The position numbers and the translations under genes are program-made. From a virus: a DNA stretch of 24,078 bases. This document shows, in pieces, positions 2,898 through 24,078 of this stretch. The stretch covers positions 1-24,078 of the IMG/VR virus record IMGVR_UViG_3300047469_000035; one strand, written 5' to 3'. Under the pieces are notes generated by a model. That model did no database searches and was not told the DNA's origin. It was given only the letters and a program-made list of their open reading frames with translations. Positions within the stretch are counted from its first letter, which is position 1. Each line of letters begins with the position of its first letter.

Positions 2898-3668
2898 TCA
2901 ATCCTGCGTGCCCGTGTAGCGCCAGTAGCCCACGGTCACTTCGCGCCAGTATCCGCCGTAGGTGTCGCGCTTGCTGTCTCGCCCGTACATGTGGTGCAGG
3001 ATCGACCCGGGTGCCGGGTAATGCTCCGGCTCGGTTTTGAGGACGCCGTCTTCCAGGAAGATTCCGGCATGGTTCGGCACAGATGATCGGACCTGCATCA
3101 GCACGATATCGCCATGCGCTGGCGTCGATACCTGCTCGAAGCCCGCCTCGGGCAGATGCTCCAGGTACAGGTTGCCGCCGCGCTCCCACCATCCATCCTC
3201 ACGGTCGTAGTTGCCCAGATCGATACCCAGTTCACGCCGGTAGTAATCGAGGATGATGCTGAGACAGTCGTGCACGCCGTGGGCGAACTTGCGACCAATC
3301 AGCGGTGCTGTGTACCCCGAAGGCTCAATGCTCGCCATCTCGCCTATGCGGACCTGCTCGTCATCACCTTTGCGCACCTCGATGATGTGCCAGGGCAACG
3401 CCGAGGCCTCGCATGATGAAAGGTCGGCTTCACTCGGGCGCGCAGGATAATCGGGGTGGCTGTGCACAACCGCCAGCACCACACCGCGATCTTCGGCCGC
3501 CGCATAATCCTCGGGCGCCAGACGGAAATGCTCGCCTGGGCTCGTTGCGGTGTTTCGGCACGGCACGTACAGCTGCTTGCGGTTCTCACGAATGACCAGG
3601 CCGCAGCACTCGCGCGGATATTCGGCCAGCGCGTGCCGCTCGATGTCGGCAATGGTCGCTTTGTTCAT
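2898..3668 (-). CDS. K: Tail tip assembly protein K: JAB/MPN plus NlpC/P60 peptidase
   Basis: 256-aa two-domain enzyme of the lambda gpK type. The N-terminal JAB/MPN metallopeptidase domain shows Glu20 in YPRECCGL and the JAMM motif H69-x-H71-x7-S79-x2-D82. The C-terminal NlpC/P60 domain (about residues 120-256) has the nucleophile Cys135 in the HGVHDCLS context and the general base His200 in NHAGIF. The family is thought to trim tail tip components or peptidoglycan. Both active sites look intact. It starts at ATG 3668, one base after the stop of L, with an AGGAG site inside the end of L. The order L-K is as in lambda. Confidence 0.95.
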   Translation of the reverse strand: MNKATIADIERHALAEYPRECCGLVIRENRKQLYVPCRNTATSPGEHFRLAPEDYAAAEDRGVVLAVVHSHPDYPARPSEADLSSCEASALPWHIIEVRKGDDEQVRIGEMASIEPSGYTAPLIGRKFAHGVHDCLSIILDYYRRELGIDLGNYDREDGWWERGGNLYLEHLPEAGFEQVSTPAHGDIVLMQVRSSVPNHAGIFLEDGVLKTEPEHYPAPGSILHHMYGRDSKRDTYGGYWREVTVGYWRYTGTQD

Positions 3669-3669
3669 G

Positions 3670-4353
3670 TCAGCTCCTGATCAGGCCGGCGGCTGGGAAA
3701 GAGCCGTATGGCAGCGGGTTTGTCGCGCCGAAGCGAAGCTTGCAGCTGGTCAGCCTGCCGCCGCACTTATCCAGCGCCGCATCCGTCACAATGATGTCAT
3801 TGGCATCGGCAACCGGCGGCCCGTTGTAGCCGCAATACGGACCACGATATCCGCCGCAACTCAGCCACCAACAAACGTTCGCGACGATCTGGCGGCGCGG
3901 CAGCTGGACGCCCATGAAATCGAGGGCGCTCGATAGCTCGAACTGCACCTGTTCCCGGTCCTCGCCGGACTTGCGCTCGACATACCAGATGTCCGGCACC
4001 AGCTCTTCGTCCGGATCAGCCTCGGGTTGCCCGTCCAGGTACTTGCCCAGCGTGCGATGTCTGATCAGCTTGGCGCCGACGAGGTCATCAAAATAGAGGA
4101 CCAAGGCGGTGATGAACCCGCCAACGTTGCCGACTGACAGCGTTGGGGTAGGCTGGGTGCCTTGCCCGGTCATTTCGAAGCCTTCCGCCTGAATTGGCCA
4201 GGGCGAGTATTCGTTCCCTTGCCAGAGAATCGGTGATTCCTGCGGGTAACCGTGAAACCGGTAAAGTTCTGCGCCCAGCGCGGTGGCATCAAGCTCGAAC
4301 AACTCAACCCACTGCCCAGGCTCAAGCGTCTGAATATCAGCCGTGATCGGCAT
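3670..4353 (-). CDS. L: Minor tail protein L (probable Fe-S tail tip protein)
   Basis: 227-aa member of the lambda gpL family, which links the tail tip to the tube. The N-terminal domain begins with the family-typical ITADIQTLEPGQWVELFELD. The C-terminal region holds five cysteines at about 161, 166, 174, 197 and 204. Lambda gpL binds an iron-sulfur cluster through four C-terminal cysteines, and the spacing of 174/197/204 here (23, then 7) matches the last three as I recall them; Cys166 is the likely fourth. ATG 4353 directly follows the TAA of the upstream DUF1353 gene, so the two are probably translationally coupled. K follows after one base. Confidence 0.93.
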   Translation of the reverse strand: MPITADIQTLEPGQWVELFELDATALGAELYRFHGYPQESPILWQGNEYSPWPIQAEGFEMTGQGTQPTPTLSVGNVGGFITALVLYFDDLVGAKLIRHRTLGKYLDGQPEADPDEELVPDIWYVERKSGEDREQVQFELSSALDFMGVQLPRRQIVANVCWWLSCGGYRGPYCGYNGPPVADANDIIVTDAALDKCGGRLTSCKLRFGATNPLPYGSFPAAGLIRS

Positions 4354-16030: not shown

Positions 16031-16462
16031 TTAGACAAATTTGGAGGTGCGGGTGTTGAGAATGCCCATGTACAGGACCATCGCGTCCGCCTGCATCTTT
16101 AAAAGCTGCCGTTCATCCTCGGGCAGACCTGCGCATAGCGGCGTGGCAAGAAACGCTTCCAGCTTCTGAATACGATCGGCGAGCTGTTCAAGCTCGGCAA
16201 CCACGCGCTGCTGGTGCGGCGCCAGATGGCCAACCTCGCCTACTTCAACGTAACCTGCATCGAACTGCGCCTTGGGCGACCAGCTGATGTAGCCGGAGTG
16301 CCCGGGATGGTTTGGCGCACCGCCATCGGTGTACTCAACCAGATATCCGTCGTCTGCGCCGTTCTCGTTGGCTGGCAGATCCCAGCCCCGGTACTCGTTG
16401 TAGGCCAGGCGAGTCATTGCTAGCACCAAGACAATCTTGGTGCCGATGAAGTGCTTTTTCAT
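16031..16462 (-). CDS. Two-domain accessory phage protein (YLVEY/SWSP domain plus crAss001_48-related domain)
   Basis: 143-aa protein. Residues 1-72 contain a phage domain with MTRLAYNEYRGW, DGYLVEY and GYISWSPKAQFDAGY. In other phages I know this domain fused to a C-terminal DUF2829 (Tad2-like) domain, but that Tad2 part is absent here. Residues 80-143 (PHQQRVVAELEQLADRIQKL ... GLPEDERQLLKMQADAMVLY) fit the short helical crAss001_48-related domain. ATG 16462 has a GGAG site. The gene interrupts the conserved MuF-to-scaffold junction and is followed by a terminator, so it is a probable moron rather than a head protein. Its function is unknown; an anti-defence role is only suggested by the domain company these modules keep. 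Confidence 0.82.
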   Translation of the reverse strand: MKKHFIGTKIVLVLAMTRLAYNEYRGWDLPANENGADDGYLVEYTDGGAPNHPGHSGYISWSPKAQFDAGYVEVGEVGHLAPHQQRVVAELEQLADRIQKLEAFLATPLCAGLPEDERQLLKMQADAMVLYMGILNTRTSKFV

Positions 16463-17563: not shown

Positions 17564-18998
17564 TCGGTTGATCCTCGTTATCCAGGTTCAGGCTGGCCGC
17601 GTCCGTCTCAAGCTCATCACGGATCTGATCGTCATCCTTTTCAGGATTGATGATTCCGCGATCGCGCAGGTACTGCCAGAAGTCGGTAACCGGCAGGCGA
17701 CCGCCCTGCACTGCGTTGAACAGGCCGGCCATGATGTTCGCGTCCAGGCTGATCTGCGTGAAGTCCTGATTCAGCTTGTACTCAGCCTTGCCAGTGGCAG
17801 CTGTGAACTCAGCCATCCATGCCAGGCACTGGGTGTAAGCTTCGCTGACGTTGCTGACCACCAACGAAAGCACGCTGTGTTCGGCGGCGCTGTCGCTATC
17901 GGCCTGCGTGGCGGTCTTCACCGCGCTGCCTCGTTCGATCAACCGGGCACCCAAGGAGACCAACTGCTCTTCCTTGGCGTCCATAGCCTCCTTGATCATC
18001 GTGTTGGCTTGAGCCTGCAGGATGCCAGCCGAACCATTTGCCGGCAGCGGTAGGATCGCCCGCGAGCCGAAGTAGATGCCCTTCTCTTCCAGCATCTTGA
18101 CCCACTGCTCATCAAGGCCGGCCATGAACACCTGCGGCTGGCCCATGAGGAATGCCGCATCTTCGTAGTCAGCGCTGTTCCGGTAATGCCCGATGTTGAC
18201 CTCGGCCATGTCGTACAGCGGTGAGTCATCGATGCTGGTGTCGTTGTTCTCGCTGCCGAGGAACTGGAACGGGATCAACTTCCACTGTTGGCCGGAGCCG
18301 TTGAGCGGGGTGAACGGCGGCACAACCATCTCGGTGGCTGCCGTGCTCTCCTGCCAGACCTCTTGCGTGTAGATGCCGGCGGCGTCCAGCCGAAGCACGC
18401 GGTACTGAATCACCTGCTCGCTGCCGAAGCCGTCATCGGTGTCGACGTCGACAGTCTCGCGCAGAACCACCAGGCTCAGCAGGTGCTGACCGCCGACCTG
18501 TCGGGTCTTCCAATTAAGGATGGCCTCGGCTGGGTAGCTGCTGACGTTCGCCCGGGCGCGACCGGCGATCTCATCGGCTTTGCTGACGCTGCCAGCCTCG
18601 ACCGCGGCGTAGTCCACCAGCAGGCCGTGCCGACCGACCTCGAGCAGATGCCCGATCACCGATTGGGACTGCTGGTAGATGCTGACGCCTTGCCCGTCGA
18701 TGTCCTTCGACACGTATTCGAGCGCGCCAGGGATGGTGAGCGTGGGCCAAGTGCGGAACACCGCTCCCACGAGGCTGTGTTTCGTCCGGCCCGTGGCGTT
18801 GTAGAACACGGCGCGCTTGAGGTAGCCCTTGTAGCGCTGCTTGTTCTCCTCGGTCTGGTCGTGAGCGTTGGGCTTTGGCAGATACAGCTCGCCAGCCGCC
18901 TTGATCGTTTCCGAGCCCTTGCAAACGTCACGCACCAGGCGCCAGCGGTTCTTCGCCGCGTCGTACTCGGGGCGGGTGAATGTGACGTCATTGGCCAT
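17538..18998 (-). CDS. Portal protein (DUF4055 family)
   Basis: 486-aa portal. The family signature is visible from the N-terminus: EYDAAKNRWRLVRDVCKG, AGELYLPKPN, RYKGYLKRAVFYNATGRT, then GRHGLLVDYA and the NSADYEDAAFLMGQPQVFMAG block, and the C-terminal YLRDRGIINPEKDDDQI typical of portals that end in an acidic tail. It forms the dodecameric ring through which DNA is packaged. The ATG shares one base with the stop of TerL (TGATG), so the genes are translationally coupled. Confidence 0.95.
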   Translation of the reverse strand: MANDVTFTRPEYDAAKNRWRLVRDVCKGSETIKAAGELYLPKPNAHDQTEENKQRYKGYLKRAVFYNATGRTKHSLVGAVFRTWPTLTIPGALEYVSKDIDGQGVSIYQQSQSVIGHLLEVGRHGLLVDYAAVEAGSVSKADEIAGRARANVSSYPAEAILNWKTRQVGGQHLLSLVVLRETVDVDTDDGFGSEQVIQYRVLRLDAAGIYTQEVWQESTAATEMVVPPFTPLNGSGQQWKLIPFQFLGSENNDTSIDDSPLYDMAEVNIGHYRNSADYEDAAFLMGQPQVFMAGLDEQWVKMLEEKGIYFGSRAILPLPANGSAGILQAQANTMIKEAMDAKEEQLVSLGARLIERGSAVKTATQADSDSAAEHSVLSLVVSNVSEAYTQCLAWMAEFTAATGKAEYKLNQDFTQISLDANIMAGLFNAVQGGRLPVTDFWQYLRDRGIINPEKDDDQIRDELETDAASLNLDNEDQPNGGQPSNP

Positions 18999-20299
18999 CA
19001 GCGAGCAAACCCCATATTCAAGGTGGTGACAGGTTTAATGATCGGGAATTCTTTGTGAATGAAGTAGCCGCCCGCGTCGTTCGCGTGGTCATTGCCTTGC
19101 GTCTTGTCAGGCTCGCCGTTGGGCGCCCAGATCTGCTGTTCCAGGCCATCGGCGTAGGTCGGGCAGGTGAACGGGTTGACCTTGTAGCGGCGCTCGCCCT
19201 GCGCGTTGCAGAACATGGCGTTCATGGCGTTAATCCGGTCTTTCACTGGCGGGTTTGCTGCTGGAGCAATCACCGTGAACCCGGCTTGCTTGAGCATGGC
19301 GATGTCAGTAAGGCTGGCATTCACCGACTTGCGAGAGTCACCCGAGGCGTCCGGGTAAATCCGGATCTCGCAGGTCTTTTCAAAATCGTTGCCGTTGTAG
19401 CGCCAGTAGCGCTCTTTGATGCGCTTGATCATGTCCGGCGTGTCGTAGCCGTTCGTGAGTTCATCAACGGCGCGCGGCATGCCCTTATCCCGCTTCACAT
19501 GGGTGATCGCCGCCATCTTCCCGACGTTGAAGTCCATACCAATGAACAGCGGCTCACCAGGCTCGACCTTGTCGAAGCACTGATTCAGCTTTCGGTCGTA
19601 CGCGTGGTAAATCGAGCCCGACGTCAGGTTGACGAACTGGCCGTCGAGATACGCCTGAATCAGCTGCTCGGGGTATGACTCCATCAACGACGGTATGTAA
19701 TCGTCCGGCAGGTTCAGCTCATTGTCGAATGTGCTTGCCTGGATCAGGCCATACATGGAAGCAAGCGCGGGCTTCTCGCGTATCTGCTTCATGAACTGCT
19801 GGTAGACGAACTTGAAGCCCTCAGGCGTCGTCGTCACGTCCACGCCGTTCTTCAGGCCCGCTACGTTGTAGCGCATCCGGGCGATGATCTTGCGCCAGGC
19901 GTGCTGAGCCTTGAGCGCGGGCAGCACGTCGAGTTCGTCGACCAGAGCGTGTCCGATCTTGAAGCCGACGATGGTCTGCGGCTTCTCCATCGAACGACAG
20001 ATCGTTGTACTGCGGTACTGCTTGCCGCTGTAGAAATCGACCTCTTTGTCGCTTTCCTTGGTGCGGACCTTCAGGCCCCAGTCGAACGCCACTTCCTCGA
20101 TGGTCGGAAAGAAGATGTCGCGGATCTGCGGATAGGTTGGAGCGAAGTAACCAGAGTTGATGCCCGGCCACTCCCAGACGTGCTTGCAGAGCGCTGCACA
20201 CCCCACCCAGGTCTTACCTGAACCGAACCCGGCGACGAACCCGCGAAACTTGTGCGGCAGCTGCAGGAAGTCAGCCTGGGGAACGTTCAGGCTCGGCAT
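18998..20299 (-). CDS. terL: Terminase large subunit
   Basis: 433-aa packaging motor. The ATPase domain has Walker A GFGSGKT at residues 24-30, PTYPQIRDIFFPT, and Walker B with the catalytic pair in HALVDELDVL. The nuclease domain has the RNase H-like acidic residues in LFIGMDFNVG, IYPDASGDSR and GNDHANDAGGYF. I chose ATG 20299 because GAGGAA lies just upstream; an in-frame TTG at 20317 is unlikely. It overlaps the small subunit gene by 29 nt. TerL cuts and translocates concatemeric DNA; whether by a headful or cos mode cannot be told from this window. Confidence 0.97.
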   Translation of the reverse strand: MPSLNVPQADFLQLPHKFRGFVAGFGSGKTWVGCAALCKHVWEWPGINSGYFAPTYPQIRDIFFPTIEEVAFDWGLKVRTKESDKEVDFYSGKQYRSTTICRSMEKPQTIVGFKIGHALVDELDVLPALKAQHAWRKIIARMRYNVAGLKNGVDVTTTPEGFKFVYQQFMKQIREKPALASMYGLIQASTFDNELNLPDDYIPSLMESYPEQLIQAYLDGQFVNLTSGSIYHAYDRKLNQCFDKVEPGEPLFIGMDFNVGKMAAITHVKRDKGMPRAVDELTNGYDTPDMIKRIKERYWRYNGNDFEKTCEIRIYPDASGDSRKSVNASLTDIAMLKQAGFTVIAPAANPPVKDRINAMNAMFCNAQGERRYKVNPFTCPTYADGLEQQIWAPNGEPDKTQGNDHANDAGGYFIHKEFPIIKPVTTLNMGFAR

Positions 20300-20747
20300 C
20301 CCGCTTCCTCGCATCAATCACATGAACCGACACAGCGGTCGGGACAATCGGTTCCTCGTCAGCATCGGCCTTCTTCTGCCGGTTGACGTACATGTCTCCT
20401 GCCTCCTTAGCGGCCTGCTCCAGCACTTGGAGAGCGAGCGGAAGGTTTCGCATGTTCTCGGCTTTCTCAACGATTCGACCTAAGGCGCGAAGTCGATATG
20501 CGCGATTGGCGATGGGTATGTCAGCGGTCTCTTCGCGGAATCGCTTGCGAGTGTCATAGAACAGGGTTTGCCACTTCAGGGCCAACCCCTTACTGCTCGC
20601 CTTGGTCGGGTCGTGACTCTCAACCTGCTGACGTGTCAGGACTACGCCAAACTCGTTCTTGACCGACTCGACCACCTGAGACGGTGTGTCGAAGCACGCC
20701 AGAGCCTGAACGATGAAGCTCTTCACCTCATTTTTCAGGACTGCCAT
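20271..20747 (-). CDS. terS: Terminase small subunit (DUF2280)
   Basis: 158-aa DUF2280 protein. The N-terminal helix-turn-helix region (VKSFIVQALACFDTPSQVVESVKNEFGV, about residues 8-35) would bind packaging DNA; KWQTLFYDTRKRFREETADIPIANRAYRLRALGRI and a helical oligomerisation part follow. The gene lies directly before TerL and overlaps it. The DUF2280 family regularly occupies this place in Pseudomonas and Burkholderia phages, so TerS is the accepted inference. Ribosome binding site is weak. Confidence 0.9.
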   Translation of the reverse strand: MAVLKNEVKSFIVQALACFDTPSQVVESVKNEFGVVLTRQQVESHDPTKASSKGLALKWQTLFYDTRKRFREETADIPIANRAYRLRALGRIVEKAENMRNLPLALQVLEQAAKEAGDMYVNRQKKADADEEPIVPTAVSVHVIDARKRDAEPERSPG

Positions 20748-20779
20748 ATGTTTTCTATCCGTCTAGGGCCTGTCTGGAA

Positions 20780-21403
20780 TCAGGCCGACTTGAGCAGACA
20801 GGTTCCGCAGGCCCTCGAAATGTTCAATTTTCCTACCTCGGCAGGTTTGTTTGCTGCATCCACCATGGCCTGAACGTCGGGGCTCGCACCATAGCGTCGT
20901 ACTACACCGACGAACTCTTCGACGTCATGACCTTGAAGCTTCAGCTTGGGGCCGCCGTCTTGGGTAAATGCGGGAGCGCCGTACTTATCGAGCGCCTGTG
21001 CGATGTGGTAAAGCTCATGCTCAACCAGTGCGCAGAATTCGACGTCGCTACAGGTTGCGCAGTAATCGGCAGCCAGAGTGATGATGAAGGCCGGCACTTC
21101 GCCGAACCAATCCAGCATCTGCTGTTCCATCCGGGCTTTCTGCCACCCACCAGCGCGGAACGCGACCTGCTCGGCCTGGCCCAACACACGGCGACCCTGC
21201 TTCTCGAAACTAGCCGATGCCCACATCACTGCGATGTCAGCGTCGATCAGGTGTGCATGGTCTTCGTTGTGGATGCTGCCGGTGTCGGCGAGGATCTCGG
21301 TCTGAATCCATTCCAACACTTCGGGTGCGGGGGTCAGGCGGATACCGAGGTCAGATAGCTCAGACAGTTCCAGCAGCGATGCTGGCGGTACTGGTCTGCT
21401 CAT
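20780..21403 (-). CDS. Putative phage zinc metallopeptidase with extra cysteine motifs
   Basis: 207-aa protein with HExxH motif HELYH at residues 129-133 in the ALVEHELYHIAQA context and a second conserved block GHDVEEFVGVVRRYG (His159), matching the putative phage metallopeptidase family (PF18894). His129, His133 and perhaps His159 should bind zinc, with Glu130 catalytic. Just before the motif are Cys115, Cys118 and Cys124, and CxxC recurs at the C-terminus (ACGTC). That could form a second metal site and is not usual in the family as I recall. It overlaps the Ntn hydrolase gene by 44 nt. The target is unknown. Confidence 0.82.
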   Translation of the reverse strand: MSRPVPPASLLELSELSDLGIRLTPAPEVLEWIQTEILADTGSIHNEDHAHLIDADIAVMWASASFEKQGRRVLGQAEQVAFRAGGWQKARMEQQMLDWFGEVPAFIITLAADYCATCSDVEFCALVEHELYHIAQALDKYGAPAFTQDGGPKLKLQGHDVEEFVGVVRRYGASPDVQAMVDAANKPAEVGKLNISRACGTCLLKSA

Positions 21404-21836
21404 CTGGACGCCCCACTGAAAGGATCAACAGGCGAACCTTGCCGCCAGTGCTCGTATCTCGCTTCTTCGCCATCTCCACCGCTTCGCCAGCAGTGGCGCC
21501 CATGTCCATGGCAGTCAGTGCGTGCGCGGTGCCGCTTCCAATGGCGTAACTCCGATCCTGGCGGATAGCAGCCTTCCATAGCCCGTCAGTGTCGTTGTGC
21601 CCAACCTGCCAAATCGTCTCGCCATCGAAGGCCAGCGCGTTCGCGTCGACGTTCTTCTCCACCGATCCGAAGTAGGCGCTGATCAGTCTAGGGAAGTCGC
21701 CAGTCGCGCCAGTGAGGATGAACTTCACTCCCTGGGCTTCTACCAGCTTCTCGTAATCGTCGTAGTCGATGATCGTTCCGCGAGTAATTCGTGAGTCATA
21801 GGCGATGACGCCGTCTTTGTAGGCAATGGTCGTCAT
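21360..21836 (-). CDS. HslV-like N-terminal nucleophile (proteasome-type) peptidase
   Basis: 158-aa Ntn hydrolase. It begins MTTIAYKDGVIAYDSRIT; removal of Met exposes Thr1, the expected nucleophile. Asp13 (AYDSR) and Lys29 (YEKLV) of the mature protein match the HslV catalytic Asp17 and Lys33, and YAIGSGTAHA corresponds to the GSG loop with catalytic Ser. I chose ATG 21836 because GAGGT lies 7 nt upstream and this places the Thr at position 1; a reading 12 codons longer would bury it. No HslU ATPase is nearby. It is downstream of the Acb2-like gene with a 7-nt gap, so both share a transcript. Substrates are unknown. Confidence 0.85.
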   Translation of the reverse strand: MTTIAYKDGVIAYDSRITRGTIIDYDDYEKLVEAQGVKFILTGATGDFPRLISAYFGSVEKNVDANALAFDGETIWQVGHNDTDGLWKAAIRQDRSYAIGSGTAHALTAMDMGATAGEAVEMAKKRDTSTGGKVRLLILSVGRPDEQTSTASIAAGTV

Positions 21837-21843
21837 GCAGACC

Positions 21844-22074
21844 TCAGCTGAACGGATCAGCAGGTTTGGCAATCGAACGCACGAACCACATGAAGCCTTG
21901 CTGCAGGTTGGTCTTCGCCAATGCGAGCAAACGCTGATCTACGCCTTCAATTTGGCCGATCTGCTTGAAGAGTTCACCCGCGTCGGCTTCAAGAGCCTTG
22001 ATGGAGTTCATGCCGTCGATCTCCGACTGCGTCAGATCGCGGTAGCCAGTGATCTTCTTGTGCTGGTTGTCCAT
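21844..22074 (-). CDS. acb2: Acb2/Tad1-family cyclic-nucleotide sponge (anti-CBASS)
   Basis: 76-aa protein that aligns from end to end with Acb2 of Pseudomonas phage PaMx33 as I recall it. Acb2 forms hexamers that sequester cyclic dinucleotides and trinucleotides made by CBASS and so block effector activation. Shared features are MDNQHKKI-GYRDL at the start, Tyr11 and Lys26 (the cyclic-dinucleotide contacts) at identical positions, and a C-terminal helix R-L-A---KT-Q-G-M---RIA-like segment in which Arg48 matches Arg67 of Acb2 (trinucleotide contact). The central part is about 19 residues shorter. The start has a GAGGG site. It sits between lysis genes and two peptidase genes. Assignment rests on memory of the family; binding is predicted, not shown. 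Confidence 0.9.
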   Translation of the reverse strand: MDNQHKKITGYRDLTQSEIDGMNSIKALEADAGELFKQIGQIEGVDQRLLALAKTNLQQGFMWFVRSIAKPADPFS

Positions 22075-22097
22075 GATGTTGCCCTCTGAAAGAACTC

Positions 22098-22134
22098 CGC
22101 GCCACGAAACGGACGCATCTGAATTTGTGGCGCG
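22098..22134. other. 8-bp inverted repeat in the gap before the Acb2 gene
   Basis: CGCGCCAC (22098-22105) and GTGGCGCG (22127-22134) form an 8-bp GC-rich stem with a 21-nt loop in the 62-nt gap between the small gene ending at 22137 and the Acb2-like start at 22074. There is no clear T-run. It could be a weak terminator, a regulatory RNA structure or an operator for local control of the Acb2 gene. Confidence 0.4.
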
Positions 22135-22136
22135 AG

Positions 22137-22388
22137 TTACAGCGCCTTCTTGGCGAGGGCCACGGCTTCATCCCAGAACACTGGTAGCTCATGGCCCAGT
22201 GCGGACAGGATGGTTTCCAGCTTGGCGATTAGGTCAGGCTCAGGGACAGCTTCTTTCATCACAACAACAGTCGAGTCTGCGTCAGCGGCAATGGATGCAG
22301 TCGCGCCTACGTCAGTATTGGTTTCGTCAGCCATGGTCGTGCCCTTCGTGAAAAGCCCGGAGAACCAGGCGAGGATTGATTTGATCAT
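22137..22388 (-). CDS. Small protein of unknown function in the lysis cassette
   Basis: 83 aa. The N-terminus MIKSILAWFSGLF is short, hydrophobic and amphipathic. It is followed by an acidic Ala/Asp/Thr-rich stretch and a C-terminal helix (DLIAKLETILSALGHEL, FWDEAVALAKKAL). The ATG at 22388 overlaps the holin stop as ATGA, which favours this start; a second ATG at 22334 (MADETNTD) with an AAGGGC motif could give a soluble 65-aa form. Two products from dual starts, as in some holin/antiholin systems, is possible but speculative. Confidence 0.65.
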   Translation of the reverse strand: MIKSILAWFSGLFTKGTTMADETNTDVGATASIAADADSTVVVMKEAVPEPDLIAKLETILSALGHELPVFWDEAVALAKKAL

Positions 22389-22612
22389 TGCGGGTCACCG
22401 TTCGGTGGTTCGCGGAGTTTGGATTGCTGCACCACTCGGGCAACGGCGACGGCCACACTGAGCGCCATGTTCACGCTGGCGAATACCAGCGGGTTCACCG
22501 CTCCCTGAAACACAGCCCATGCCACCGCAGCAGCATTCACGGCAGCAATCAGCGCGGCGATCTGCACACTGGTCATTCGCCAGGCCTTACGCCATTCAGG
22601 GATGAGTGCCAT
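22385..22612 (-). CDS. Holin (DUF7940-like)
   Basis: 75-aa protein beginning MALIPEWRKAWRM, the typical start of a Pseudomonas/Xanthomonas holin family (DUF7940). Two membrane helices are visible, about residues 14-34 (SVQIAALIAAVNAAAVAWAV) and 41-62 (LVFASVNMALSVAVAVARVV), with a basic, Pro-containing C-terminal tail. Holins form membrane holes at a set time to release endolysin. I chose ATG 22612 over a longer reading from 22672 because of the family N-terminus; it overlaps the upstream lipoprotein gene by 17 nt. Confidence 0.85.
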   Translation of the reverse strand: MALIPEWRKAWRMTSVQIAALIAAVNAAAVAWAVFQGAVNPLVFASVNMALSVAVAVARVVQQSKLREPPNGDPQ

Positions 22613-22844
22613 GGTTCGTGTCCGGGGGCAGAAGTTTTTCGAGGCTTTCGGCGTACTGCCTCCATTCGTCACGGCTTTTCGTCACGCGGCGCACTGCGGC
22701 CTTTGGTGGCTCTGGCTCAGGACACATCGATGGCGCGGACGTGAAACGGAAGACCGTTGTTTTGTGCTCGGCTGGTTGCGGGGTTACTGCGTCCTGCTGT
22801 GCGCACCCGGCAAGCAGTAGCACAGCTACCAGTGCGCACCTCAC
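22596..22844 (-). CDS. Small lipoprotein, o-spanin-like (Rz1 type)
   Basis: 82 aa, GTG start. The signal peptide MRCALVAVLLLAGCAQQ has lipobox LLAG|C (lipidated Cys14). The mature part is Pro-rich (PEPEPP) and ends in a helical stretch (DEWRQYAESLEKLLPP). Its GTG overlaps the upstream stop as GTGA, and its partner encodes a membrane-anchored periplasmic protein, the arrangement of an i-spanin/o-spanin pair that fuses inner and outer membranes in the last step of lysis. The role is inferred from architecture, not from sequence identity to Rz1. Confidence 0.7.
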   Translation of the reverse strand: MRCALVAVLLLAGCAQQDAVTPQPAEHKTTVFRFTSAPSMCPEPEPPKAAVRRVTKSRDEWRQYAESLEKLLPPDTNHGTHP

Positions 22845-23158
22845 TTTGGCCGCCCATTGAGCGTCAGCTGCTTCAAGGTGTCTGTAAGTGTGTCAACGCG
22901 GTATTCCTGCTTCTCGGTCGAGGTCTTCACCACGCCAAGGGTCACCCCGTATGCGTCGAGTGTTCGCTCGATGGAGCCGATCCTCTGGATCGTCACGGCC
23001 TGGGTCGTCTGGTAGCTGTTCAGCGCCACCTGAAGGGAGGACAGCGAGGACACCACGTAGCTGAACGCTGCCAAGGCGCCGAGCGAGATCACAGTTTGCA
23101 GGATGGGCACGACGAGCTTGAACATCGTGCTGTCGGCGATGCGCGAGACTTCGGTCAT
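22841..23158 (-). CDS. Membrane-anchored periplasmic protein, possible i-spanin
   Basis: 105 aa. One membrane helix at about residues 14-38 (FKLVVPILQTVISLGALAAFSYVV) is followed by a polar, helix-prone region of about 65 residues (SLQVALNSYQTTQAV, IQRIGSIERTLDAYG, EKQEYRVDTLTDTLKQL) that could form a coiled coil in the periplasm. As the first gene after the late leader, overlapping a lipoprotein gene, it fits an i-spanin. A single-helix regulator of the holin is the main alternative. The ribosome binding site is weak. Confidence 0.62.
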   Translation of the reverse strand: MTEVSRIADSTMFKLVVPILQTVISLGALAAFSYVVSSLSSLQVALNSYQTTQAVTIQRIGSIERTLDAYGVTLGVVKTSTEKQEYRVDTLTDTLKQLTLNGRPK

Positions 23159-23173
23159 GGTGACATCCGTAAT

Positions 23174-23196
23174 AAAAAAGCCCGATGGATCCGGGC
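23174..23196 (-). terminator. Terminator-like hairpin at the end of the late leader
   Basis: GCCCG / CGGGC stem (23180-23184 with 23192-23196), 7-nt loop, followed on the minus strand by six T (23179-23174). It is 16 nt before the start of the first lysis gene at 23158, so any late transcript has to pass it. Confidence 0.7.
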
Positions 23197-23201
23197 AAAG
23201 G

Positions 23202-23245
23202 CGCTGGAGGAGCAGCGATGGATCTGGATGGGCCTTATGAGGCCC
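23202..23245 (-). other. Two further hairpins in the late leader
   Basis: GGGCCT/AGGCCC with a 4-nt loop (23230-23245) and CGCTG/CAGCG with a 6-nt loop (23202-23217). On the minus strand the second loop reads CTCCTC, which is complementary to a GAGGAG ribosome binding site. Lying between the two terminators, they make the leader almost continuously structured. Confidence 0.55.
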
Positions 23246-23253
23246 TGAAACGT

Positions 23254-23279
23254 AAAAACCCGGCGCAATGGCCGGGTTT
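23254..23279 (-). terminator. First terminator-like hairpin of the late leader
   Basis: AAACCCGGC / GCCGGGTTT, a 9-bp stem (23256-23264 with 23271-23279) with a 6-nt loop. On the minus strand the T-run TTTTT (23258-23254) follows. The near-symmetric stem could also act in the other direction. Confidence 0.75.
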
Positions 23280-23320
23280 CGATATCTGCGTGCGTCGGTG
23301 GTGAGTTGCGCACTATGGGA

Positions 23321-23349
23321 AAATTACCCCAAAAACCCCAACATGGCAA
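23321..23349 (-). promoter_or_regulatory. Candidate sigma70-type late promoter
   Basis: On the minus strand TTGCCA (-35, five of six consensus bases, 23344-23349), a 17-nt spacer and TAATTT (-10, three of six, 23321-23326). It lies in the non-coding gap directly after the 225-aa gene and before two terminators, where lambda has pR'. Transcription would begin near 23313-23315. The weak -10 box fits a promoter that needs a phage factor or a pausing mechanism. Confidence 0.5.
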
Positions 23350-23353
23350 TAGT

Positions 23354-24031
23354 TCATGCAGCATTTTCCGCATTTTCTGCATGAATTACGCGCCACACTG
23401 GCTCCTGAGCCTGAATATCAACCTCTTCAATTGCATCGCGAAGGAAATCCCATACCTCCTTCCAGTCACGATTCCAGACCTTTGGCTCGATGGTGATGCC
23501 ATACAGCTTGAGCATCCCGTCGGCCACCCGCGCCGGCCCCCATTGCGCGCCACCATGAACCTCAGCCTTGTACGACTGCAGCGCGACGGTGATCAGGCAA
23601 TGAACCTTGTGCGCTTTGGCGTCCGTCAGCACCGAGAAGTCGACTTCGTTCCAAATCACCTTCTCGGCGTTGAGCATGTGCACTGCGGTCATGCATGGGT
23701 GGTAGAGGTAGTGCCCGAACTGCTGCACCTGGAACGGCAGCGTGTCGATGGCGCGCAGCACTTTGCCGATCGTAGCCAGATGCGCGGCGCGTGCCGTTGA
23801 CCTGCCAATCGGCGTGCGGCGCGTTTCCGAGATACTGATCCGCTGGCGCACTACCTGAATGCGCTCAGCCTTATCGTCACCTATGGCTGGGAACACGGCC
23901 TCTCGGCGCTTCACCCTCTCGGTCTTGATCTTGGTCGCGGTCTCCGCCTTCTCGGCCGCCACCGCGCTGATGGATGCATTGGATTCGTGCTGCGCGTCTG
24001 ACCACGCTTGTCGTGCTCCGATAAGTCTCAT
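23354..24031 (-). CDS. Unrecognised 225-aa protein in the late-regulator position
   Basis: The N-terminal 60 residues are helical and charged (DAQHESNASISAVAAEKAETATKIKTERVKRREAV region), then SISETRRTPIGRSTARAAHLATIGKVL, an aromatic middle (FGHYLYHPCMTAVHMLNAEKVIW), HKVHCLITVALQSYKAEVHGG and the C-terminal WNRDWKEVWDFLRDAIEEVDI. No signal peptide, membrane helix or zinc motif of classic lambda Q is present. ATG 24031 overlaps the previous stop as ATGA and has a GGGGAG site. It ends just before a candidate late promoter and tandem terminators, where lambdoid phages place the antiterminator Q, so a Q-like function is a reasonable but unproven guess. I believe similar proteins occur in Pseudomonas prophages without assigned function. 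Confidence 0.75.
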   Translation of the reverse strand: MRLIGARQAWSDAQHESNASISAVAAEKAETATKIKTERVKRREAVFPAIGDDKAERIQVVRQRISISETRRTPIGRSTARAAHLATIGKVLRAIDTLPFQVQQFGHYLYHPCMTAVHMLNAEKVIWNEVDFSVLTDAKAHKVHCLITVALQSYKAEVHGGAQWGPARVADGMLKLYGITIEPKVWNRDWKEVWDFLRDAIEEVDIQAQEPVWRVIHAENAENAA

Positions 24032-24078
24032 GCAACTGCTCTCCCCTTCAGCTCTTTGGTCTTTGCCCGGTACTCGGC
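24028..24078 (-). CDS. 3' end of an upstream gene, identity unknown
   Basis: An open frame enters from the right edge and reads AEYRAKTKELKGRAVA before TGA at 24030-24028. That stop overlaps the start of the 225-aa gene as ATGA, indicating a real coupled gene. Sixteen basic residues are too few to name it; nin-region proteins such as NinG or a Holliday junction resolvase would be usual in this place. Confidence 0.55.
   Translation of the reverse strand, partial: AEYRAKTKELKGRAVA

Follow-up and report, generated by a model that had tools for sequence, protein, structure and literature searches.

A Pseudomonas phage gene next to an Acb2-like gene encodes a PPH-type proteasome homologue carried as accessory cargo

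The gene described here, carried by a 24,078-nt stretch of viral DNA (IMG/VR record IMGVR_UViG_3300047469_000035, positions 1 to 24,078; hereafter the window), is a Pseudomonas phage gene and a further member of the known PPH family, not HslV proper. PPH was named as a phage family in 2021 by Fuchs, Alva and Lupas, who reported neither an AAA+ partner nor an informative genomic neighbourhood (PMC8665760); the published family features place the window protein there almost certainly. A literature search for an experimentally tested role of HslV-like phage proteins led only to that 2021 study. Such virus-borne relatives of the proteasome are widespread, with homologues of the window protein found by tblastn in 558 phage records. 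Our results narrow the picture: PPH is an accessory gene, its active site is retained, it probably does not depend on HslU, and it is tied neither to Acb2 nor to head maturation. Its best reading, which we hold with moderate confidence, is that of an ATP-independent, self-assembling threonine peptidase active late in infection.

The initial annotation had assigned Thr1, Asp13, Lys29 and a GSG loop to the ORF when read from position 21836. All of these assignments are right, and an RDTSTGG motif, unmentioned before, can be added to them (Table 1). The protein opens with MTTIAYKDGVIAYDSRIT. Its 46 non-redundant homologues all have Met/Val-Thr-Thr as their N-terminus, start at the equivalent position with ATG (43/46) or GTG (3/46), and have no propeptide. 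Given these start codons and the GAGG just upstream, we conclude that the start is correct; a longer TTG start at 21872 is unconserved among the homologues. Intact homologues measure 142-162 aa, each beginning with Met/Val-Thr, and the window protein reaches its length through a low-confidence C-terminal tail.

Table 1. Coordinates of the PPH gene, its catalytic elements and its neighbours in the window
Feature	Position	Strand	Evidence or remark
41-nt conserved inverted-repeat element, upstream edge of the cargo slot	22094..22134	-	CGCGCCACAAATTCAGATGCGTCCGTTTCGTGGCGCGGAGT, immediately before acb2
Acb2-like cyclic-nucleotide sponge gene, 76 aa	21844..22074	-	PF24729 1.3e-19; PDB 8h2j 4e-13
GAGG, likely ribosome-binding site	21842..21845	-	Overlaps the Acb2 stop codon
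PPH-type proteasome homologue gene	21360..21836	-	158 aa, ATG start at 21836, intact ORF
Thr1 codon (nucleophile)	21831..21833	-	46/46 homologues; aligned to residue 1 of HslV/proteasome beta chains
Asp13 codon (= Asp17 of proteasome/HslV)	21795..21797	-	45/46 homologues
Lys29 codon (= Lys33)	21747..21749	-	46/46 homologues
GSG loop (Ser129 region of proteasome)	21531..21539	-	Both Gly 46/46, Ser 44/46; aligns with beta-subunit GSGS
RDTSTGG (= RDxxSGG, Asp166/Ser169 of proteasome beta)	21441..21461	-	R, D, T, G, G invariant in 46
Putative phage metallopeptidase (PF18894, HELYH)	20780..21403	-	E 5e-42; overlaps PPH 3' end by 44 nt
DUF2280 protein, start of head module	20271..20747	-	PF10045 1.4e-47
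Terminase large subunit (TerL)	18998..20317	-	phrog_2

Published PPHs are proteins of about 140 residues from tailed phages or prophages, with no propeptide, with helix H2 missing and with Thr1, Asp17, Lys33 and Gly47 as their catalytic signature (PMC8665760). The window protein resembles them in size (a shared core of about 139 residues plus a variable tail) and in having neither propeptide, H2 nor AAA+ partner, the differences being its longer C-terminal tail and the overlap of that tail with the next gene. The signature residues correspond to T2, D14, K30 and G43 of the protein (P0001, Met counted), which are conserved in 45-46 of the 46 homologues, and carriage by tailed phages or prophages applies here as well. 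Thr1 and Lys29, whose loss from homologues would have spoken against a peptidase of this type, are present in every one of the 46, as are both glycines of the GSG loop, the Arg-Asp pair and the TGG. Even phage homologues at 28-43% identity, from hosts that include Vibrio, Rhizobium, Sinorhizobium, Escherichia, Klebsiella and Salmonella, still keep the active site, with Asp or Glu at Asp17 and with Lys33, GSG and the Asp166/Ser(Thr)169 pair retained; the exception is BarnCat, whose annotated start falls past the Thr1 position, so that Thr1 is unreadable there. An alignment-based second scan of viral contigs returned largely the same PPH loci.

The gene is under strong purifying selection, with dN/dS of 0.02-0.21 across all pairs tested and 0.022 against the nearest relative. 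A natural variant (L016:6001-6432) has Tyr in place of Asp13, and two metagenomic copies (L002 and L003) have lost the start codon and about 16 residues; hence activity is not retained in every copy.

Database searches named the protein unevenly. Its PHROG match is phrog_1040, 'peptidase HslV family' (E = 5e-38); Pfam and NCBIfam offered no name, and it did not match PF00227 even with E values of up to 1 allowed, although 36 of the 46 homologues match it weakly (best 1.7e-5). A profile built from the 46 PPHs matches proteasome beta chains at 1e-6 among PDB sequences, rather than HslV. By hhalign, the match to a three-sequence HslV set is weak (probability 15%) and confined to the first 56 residues, probably because that set is shallow, and structural comparison was used instead.

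An AlphaFold2 model was built with the 46 aligned homologues as input (pLDDT 86). Structure prediction had been proposed as a check on the fold, and it returned an HslV-type Ntn fold and no non-Ntn fold. The best structural match is HslV (Z 15.9, rmsd 2.5 A over 136 residues), with proteasome beta chains at Z of about 14-15, and model residue 2, which is Thr1, superposes on residue 1 of HslV and of the proteasome beta chains. The model contains helix H1 (45-55), then strands, and helices at 103-111 and 116-126; helix H2 is absent after H1. As modelled, PPH thus has the proteasome/HslV-type Ntn-hydrolase fold without helix H2. The earlier description of the protein as HslV-like therefore stands for the fold and for the nearest structure, but not for the family: H2 is lacking, the profile matches proteasome beta chains, and the features are those of PPHs.

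Comparison with the known systems sharpens this placement. PPH shares with HslV the Ntn fold and a Thr1 N-terminus; HslV, however, has about 176 aa, possesses both H1 and H2 and works with HslU, whereas in PPH both H2 and part of the docking pocket are missing and no phage HslU accompanies it. The RDxxSGG and GSG motifs agree with those of the proteasome beta subunit, which differs in being much longer and in having a propeptide and H2. BPH and Anbu are alike in having no propeptide and no known unfoldase; in contrast to PPH, they are bacterial rather than phage-borne and retain helix H2. Both are oligomeric, yet inert on standard substrates (PMC5777263, PMC6376114), and PPH may accordingly depend on an activator or on a particular kind of substrate.

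The claim that this is a proteasome-type peptidase without a phage-encoded unfoldase was borne out. The active site is complete, and AAA_2 unfoldases numbered zero in the window record and zero in 20 PPH-carrying phage contigs (49-77 kb, which may be incomplete), with 14 of 14 control genomes scoring positive. PF00004 matches occur in 6 of these 20 contigs, in frames of 275-481 aa that may be replication proteins.

From these features a mechanism can be proposed. The host would strip the initiator Met and so expose Thr1. The protein would then assemble with itself through its H3/H4 face. H3/H4 form the ring-ring contacts in proteasomes (PMC8665760), and per-element entropy among the homologues is 0.8 for H3/H4 versus 1.4-1.9 for H1 and the following linker; since H3/H4 is better conserved than the H1 face, with which HslV contacts HslU, assembly is probably kept. 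PPH would act by threonine catalysis, with no unfoldase dedicated to it, and we regard an active, HslU-independent hydrolase as probable. Late in infection, a timing read from gene position only, it might cut peptides or unfolded protein, or else a single particular protein; that it cuts peptides or unfolded proteins broadly rather than one specific target we give somewhat less than an even chance. Its benefit to the phage would be conditional, and the gene would not be essential.

The surroundings of the gene show it to be accessory cargo, with the lysis genes on one side and the metallopeptidase/terminase module on the other. The PF18894 metallopeptidase downstream is present in all DUF2280-type loci examined and is a core gene of that module, in which the DUF2280 protein is likely the small terminase subunit, judging from its position beside TerL. 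Upstream, the gene directly before PPH changes from phage to phage: across 117 loci it is a member of the phrog_9557 family in 34, often with an ATGA overlap, phrog_15190 in 21, Acb2 within 7-8 nt in 8, and phrog_3540 and others elsewhere. Different phages again carry PPH between genes for head completion and head closure, between TerL and portal, or ahead of holins. The gene is paired with several terminase types, and terminase type changes state 25 times on the PPH tree, which is consistent with frequent shuffling.

At the start of the gene, codons 1-16 (21789-21836 in the window, and in the homologues) have a same-codon frequency of 0.70, versus 0.36-0.52 in codons 32-139, and the sequence immediately upstream varies among phages, unlike these conserved first codons. 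It is as if the gene start were a recombination boundary. A promoter scan of positions 20000 to 24078 gave no promoter-like site, and no Rfam family came up either.

The main rival to a self-assembling late peptidase is an anti-defence protease: PPH and Acb2 would travel together as counter-defence cargo, with PPH cutting an immune protein of the host or a peptide that signals immunity. In favour of an anti-defence role, at least one gene of the slot is an anti-defence gene and a conditional benefit suits a patchily distributed gene, but on balance we consider this role unlikely. The assignment of the upstream gene as Acb2-like in the initial annotation is sound (Table 1; PDB 8h2j is a solved phage Acb2, annotated p26). 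Its end lies 7 nt from the PPH start, and spacing and shared strand make cotranscription of the two likely. PPH is, moreover, accessory, and its slot is one in which Acb2 is found as well: among the 71 PPH loci with enough flank, the window included, Acb2 lies upstream in 14, scattered over the PPH tree with at least nine changes. Even the distant P. aeruginosa phage HHBS14_1 (L085, PQ287643; region 3434-4186), whose PPH has 41% identity to that of the window, carries Acb2 at 3434-3658 and PPH from 3761, about 100 nt apart.

Against this, none of 56 terminase-anchored (DUF2280) viral loci with sufficient flank carried both genes, 14 having PPH only, 4 Acb2 only and 38 neither. In the contig of the nearest PPH relative (94%) no Acb2 could be detected; with its control set silent this search is weak taken singly, but blastp of the flank agrees. 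The genes immediately upstream of PPH are highly varied, the other slot genes are without assigned function, PPH adjoins head-completion, terminase or lysis genes in other phages, and PADLOC gave no match. When loci were anchored on Acb2 instead, tblastn placed PPH no more than 4 kb away in 27 of 67, and an HMM search did so in 22 of 67, rates modestly above the 14 of 56 of the terminase-anchored loci and confounded by lineage. Hence the Acb2-PPH linkage is not conserved, and the two genes look as though they assort independently, sharing a slot rather than forming a fixed partnership. The initial annotation had taken the proximity of Acb2 as a hint that the protease itself could counter a host defence, and had proposed clustering of homologues with anti-defence genes as a check; with PPH and Acb2 together at none of the terminase-anchored loci, and with Acb2 undetected beside the nearest relative, the proximity fails to establish such a role. 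The more specific version is distinctly improbable: a counter-defence enzyme, working with no unfoldase, that would destroy a protein or a peptide signal of host immunity and pass from phage to phage through the slot used by Acb2.

In many phages the Acb2 protein is 95-99% identical to that of the window while the DNA is only about 84-87% identical, which marks the Acb2 protein as very strongly constrained.

A far weaker alternative to the degradative peptidase is a specific transpeptidase or ligase resembling connectase. Connectase offers a precedent, being a divergent proteasome homologue that acts as a monomeric, specific ligase (PMC8665760). Its signature element, however, is a helical insertion of two helices between S3 and S4 (PMC8665760), which is absent from both the PPH model and the alignment, and we consider this reading very improbable.

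The initial annotation had also suggested that the phage protein could hijack host HslU; in doing so it would take the place of host HslV or compete with it. Intact HslV and HslU are indeed encoded in three host genomes with related prophages, and the nearest solved fold to PPH is HslV. The HslU C-terminus, however, docks on HslV around Phe54, Phe57, 79-80 and 114 (PMC6429459). In PPH, by alignment numbering, the equivalent of Phe54 is variable and non-aromatic (Pro, Gln, Ala, Ser or Glu), that of Phe57 is Ile, Val or Gln, and helix H2, which bears positions 79-80 of the pocket, is missing from the model. Furthermore, BPH, a related family without these contacts, showed no HslU binding (PMC5777263). 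From the alignment and the model at Phe54, Phe57 and 79-80, docking with HslU appears unlikely, and the hijacking of host HslU as the function of PPH can be given very little credence.

A head-maturation protease that cuts a scaffold or capsid protein is just as hard to credit: in several phages PPH is a neighbour of terminase or head genes, and the head genes of the window include no other recognised head protease, but sister phages without PPH (L214, L216, L218 and L220) have TerL 97-98%, portal 86-95%, scaffold 96-99% and capsid about 98% identical to those of the window, and the phiM5 record annotates its portal, scaffold and capsid proteins, but not its PPH, as particle components. Given that phages with nearly identical head genes do without it, PPH is accessory and not a required head protease. 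In two of these sister phages that were inspected, the PPH site holds unrelated small genes.

Several minor observations concern the slot and its neighbours. The 35-nt core of the inverted-repeat element at its upstream edge is exact in 16 viral contigs (L375-L389 and L039), where it sits 10-43 nt ahead of about ten different small genes, Acb2 included. The full 41-nt element matches no Rfam family and has an RNA fold z of only -1.0; it looks like a boundary or linker of the cargo slot. The PHROG label for the family of the downstream metallopeptidase, 'transposase', looks wrong. Finally, a phrog_32732 protein is encoded at 16031-16462 of the window, within the head-gene region, where the minor head and scaffold proteins flank it, and a relative with a crAss001_48-type C-terminus (PF21825) occurs as an upstream neighbour of PPH in another contig (L110:5514-5861).
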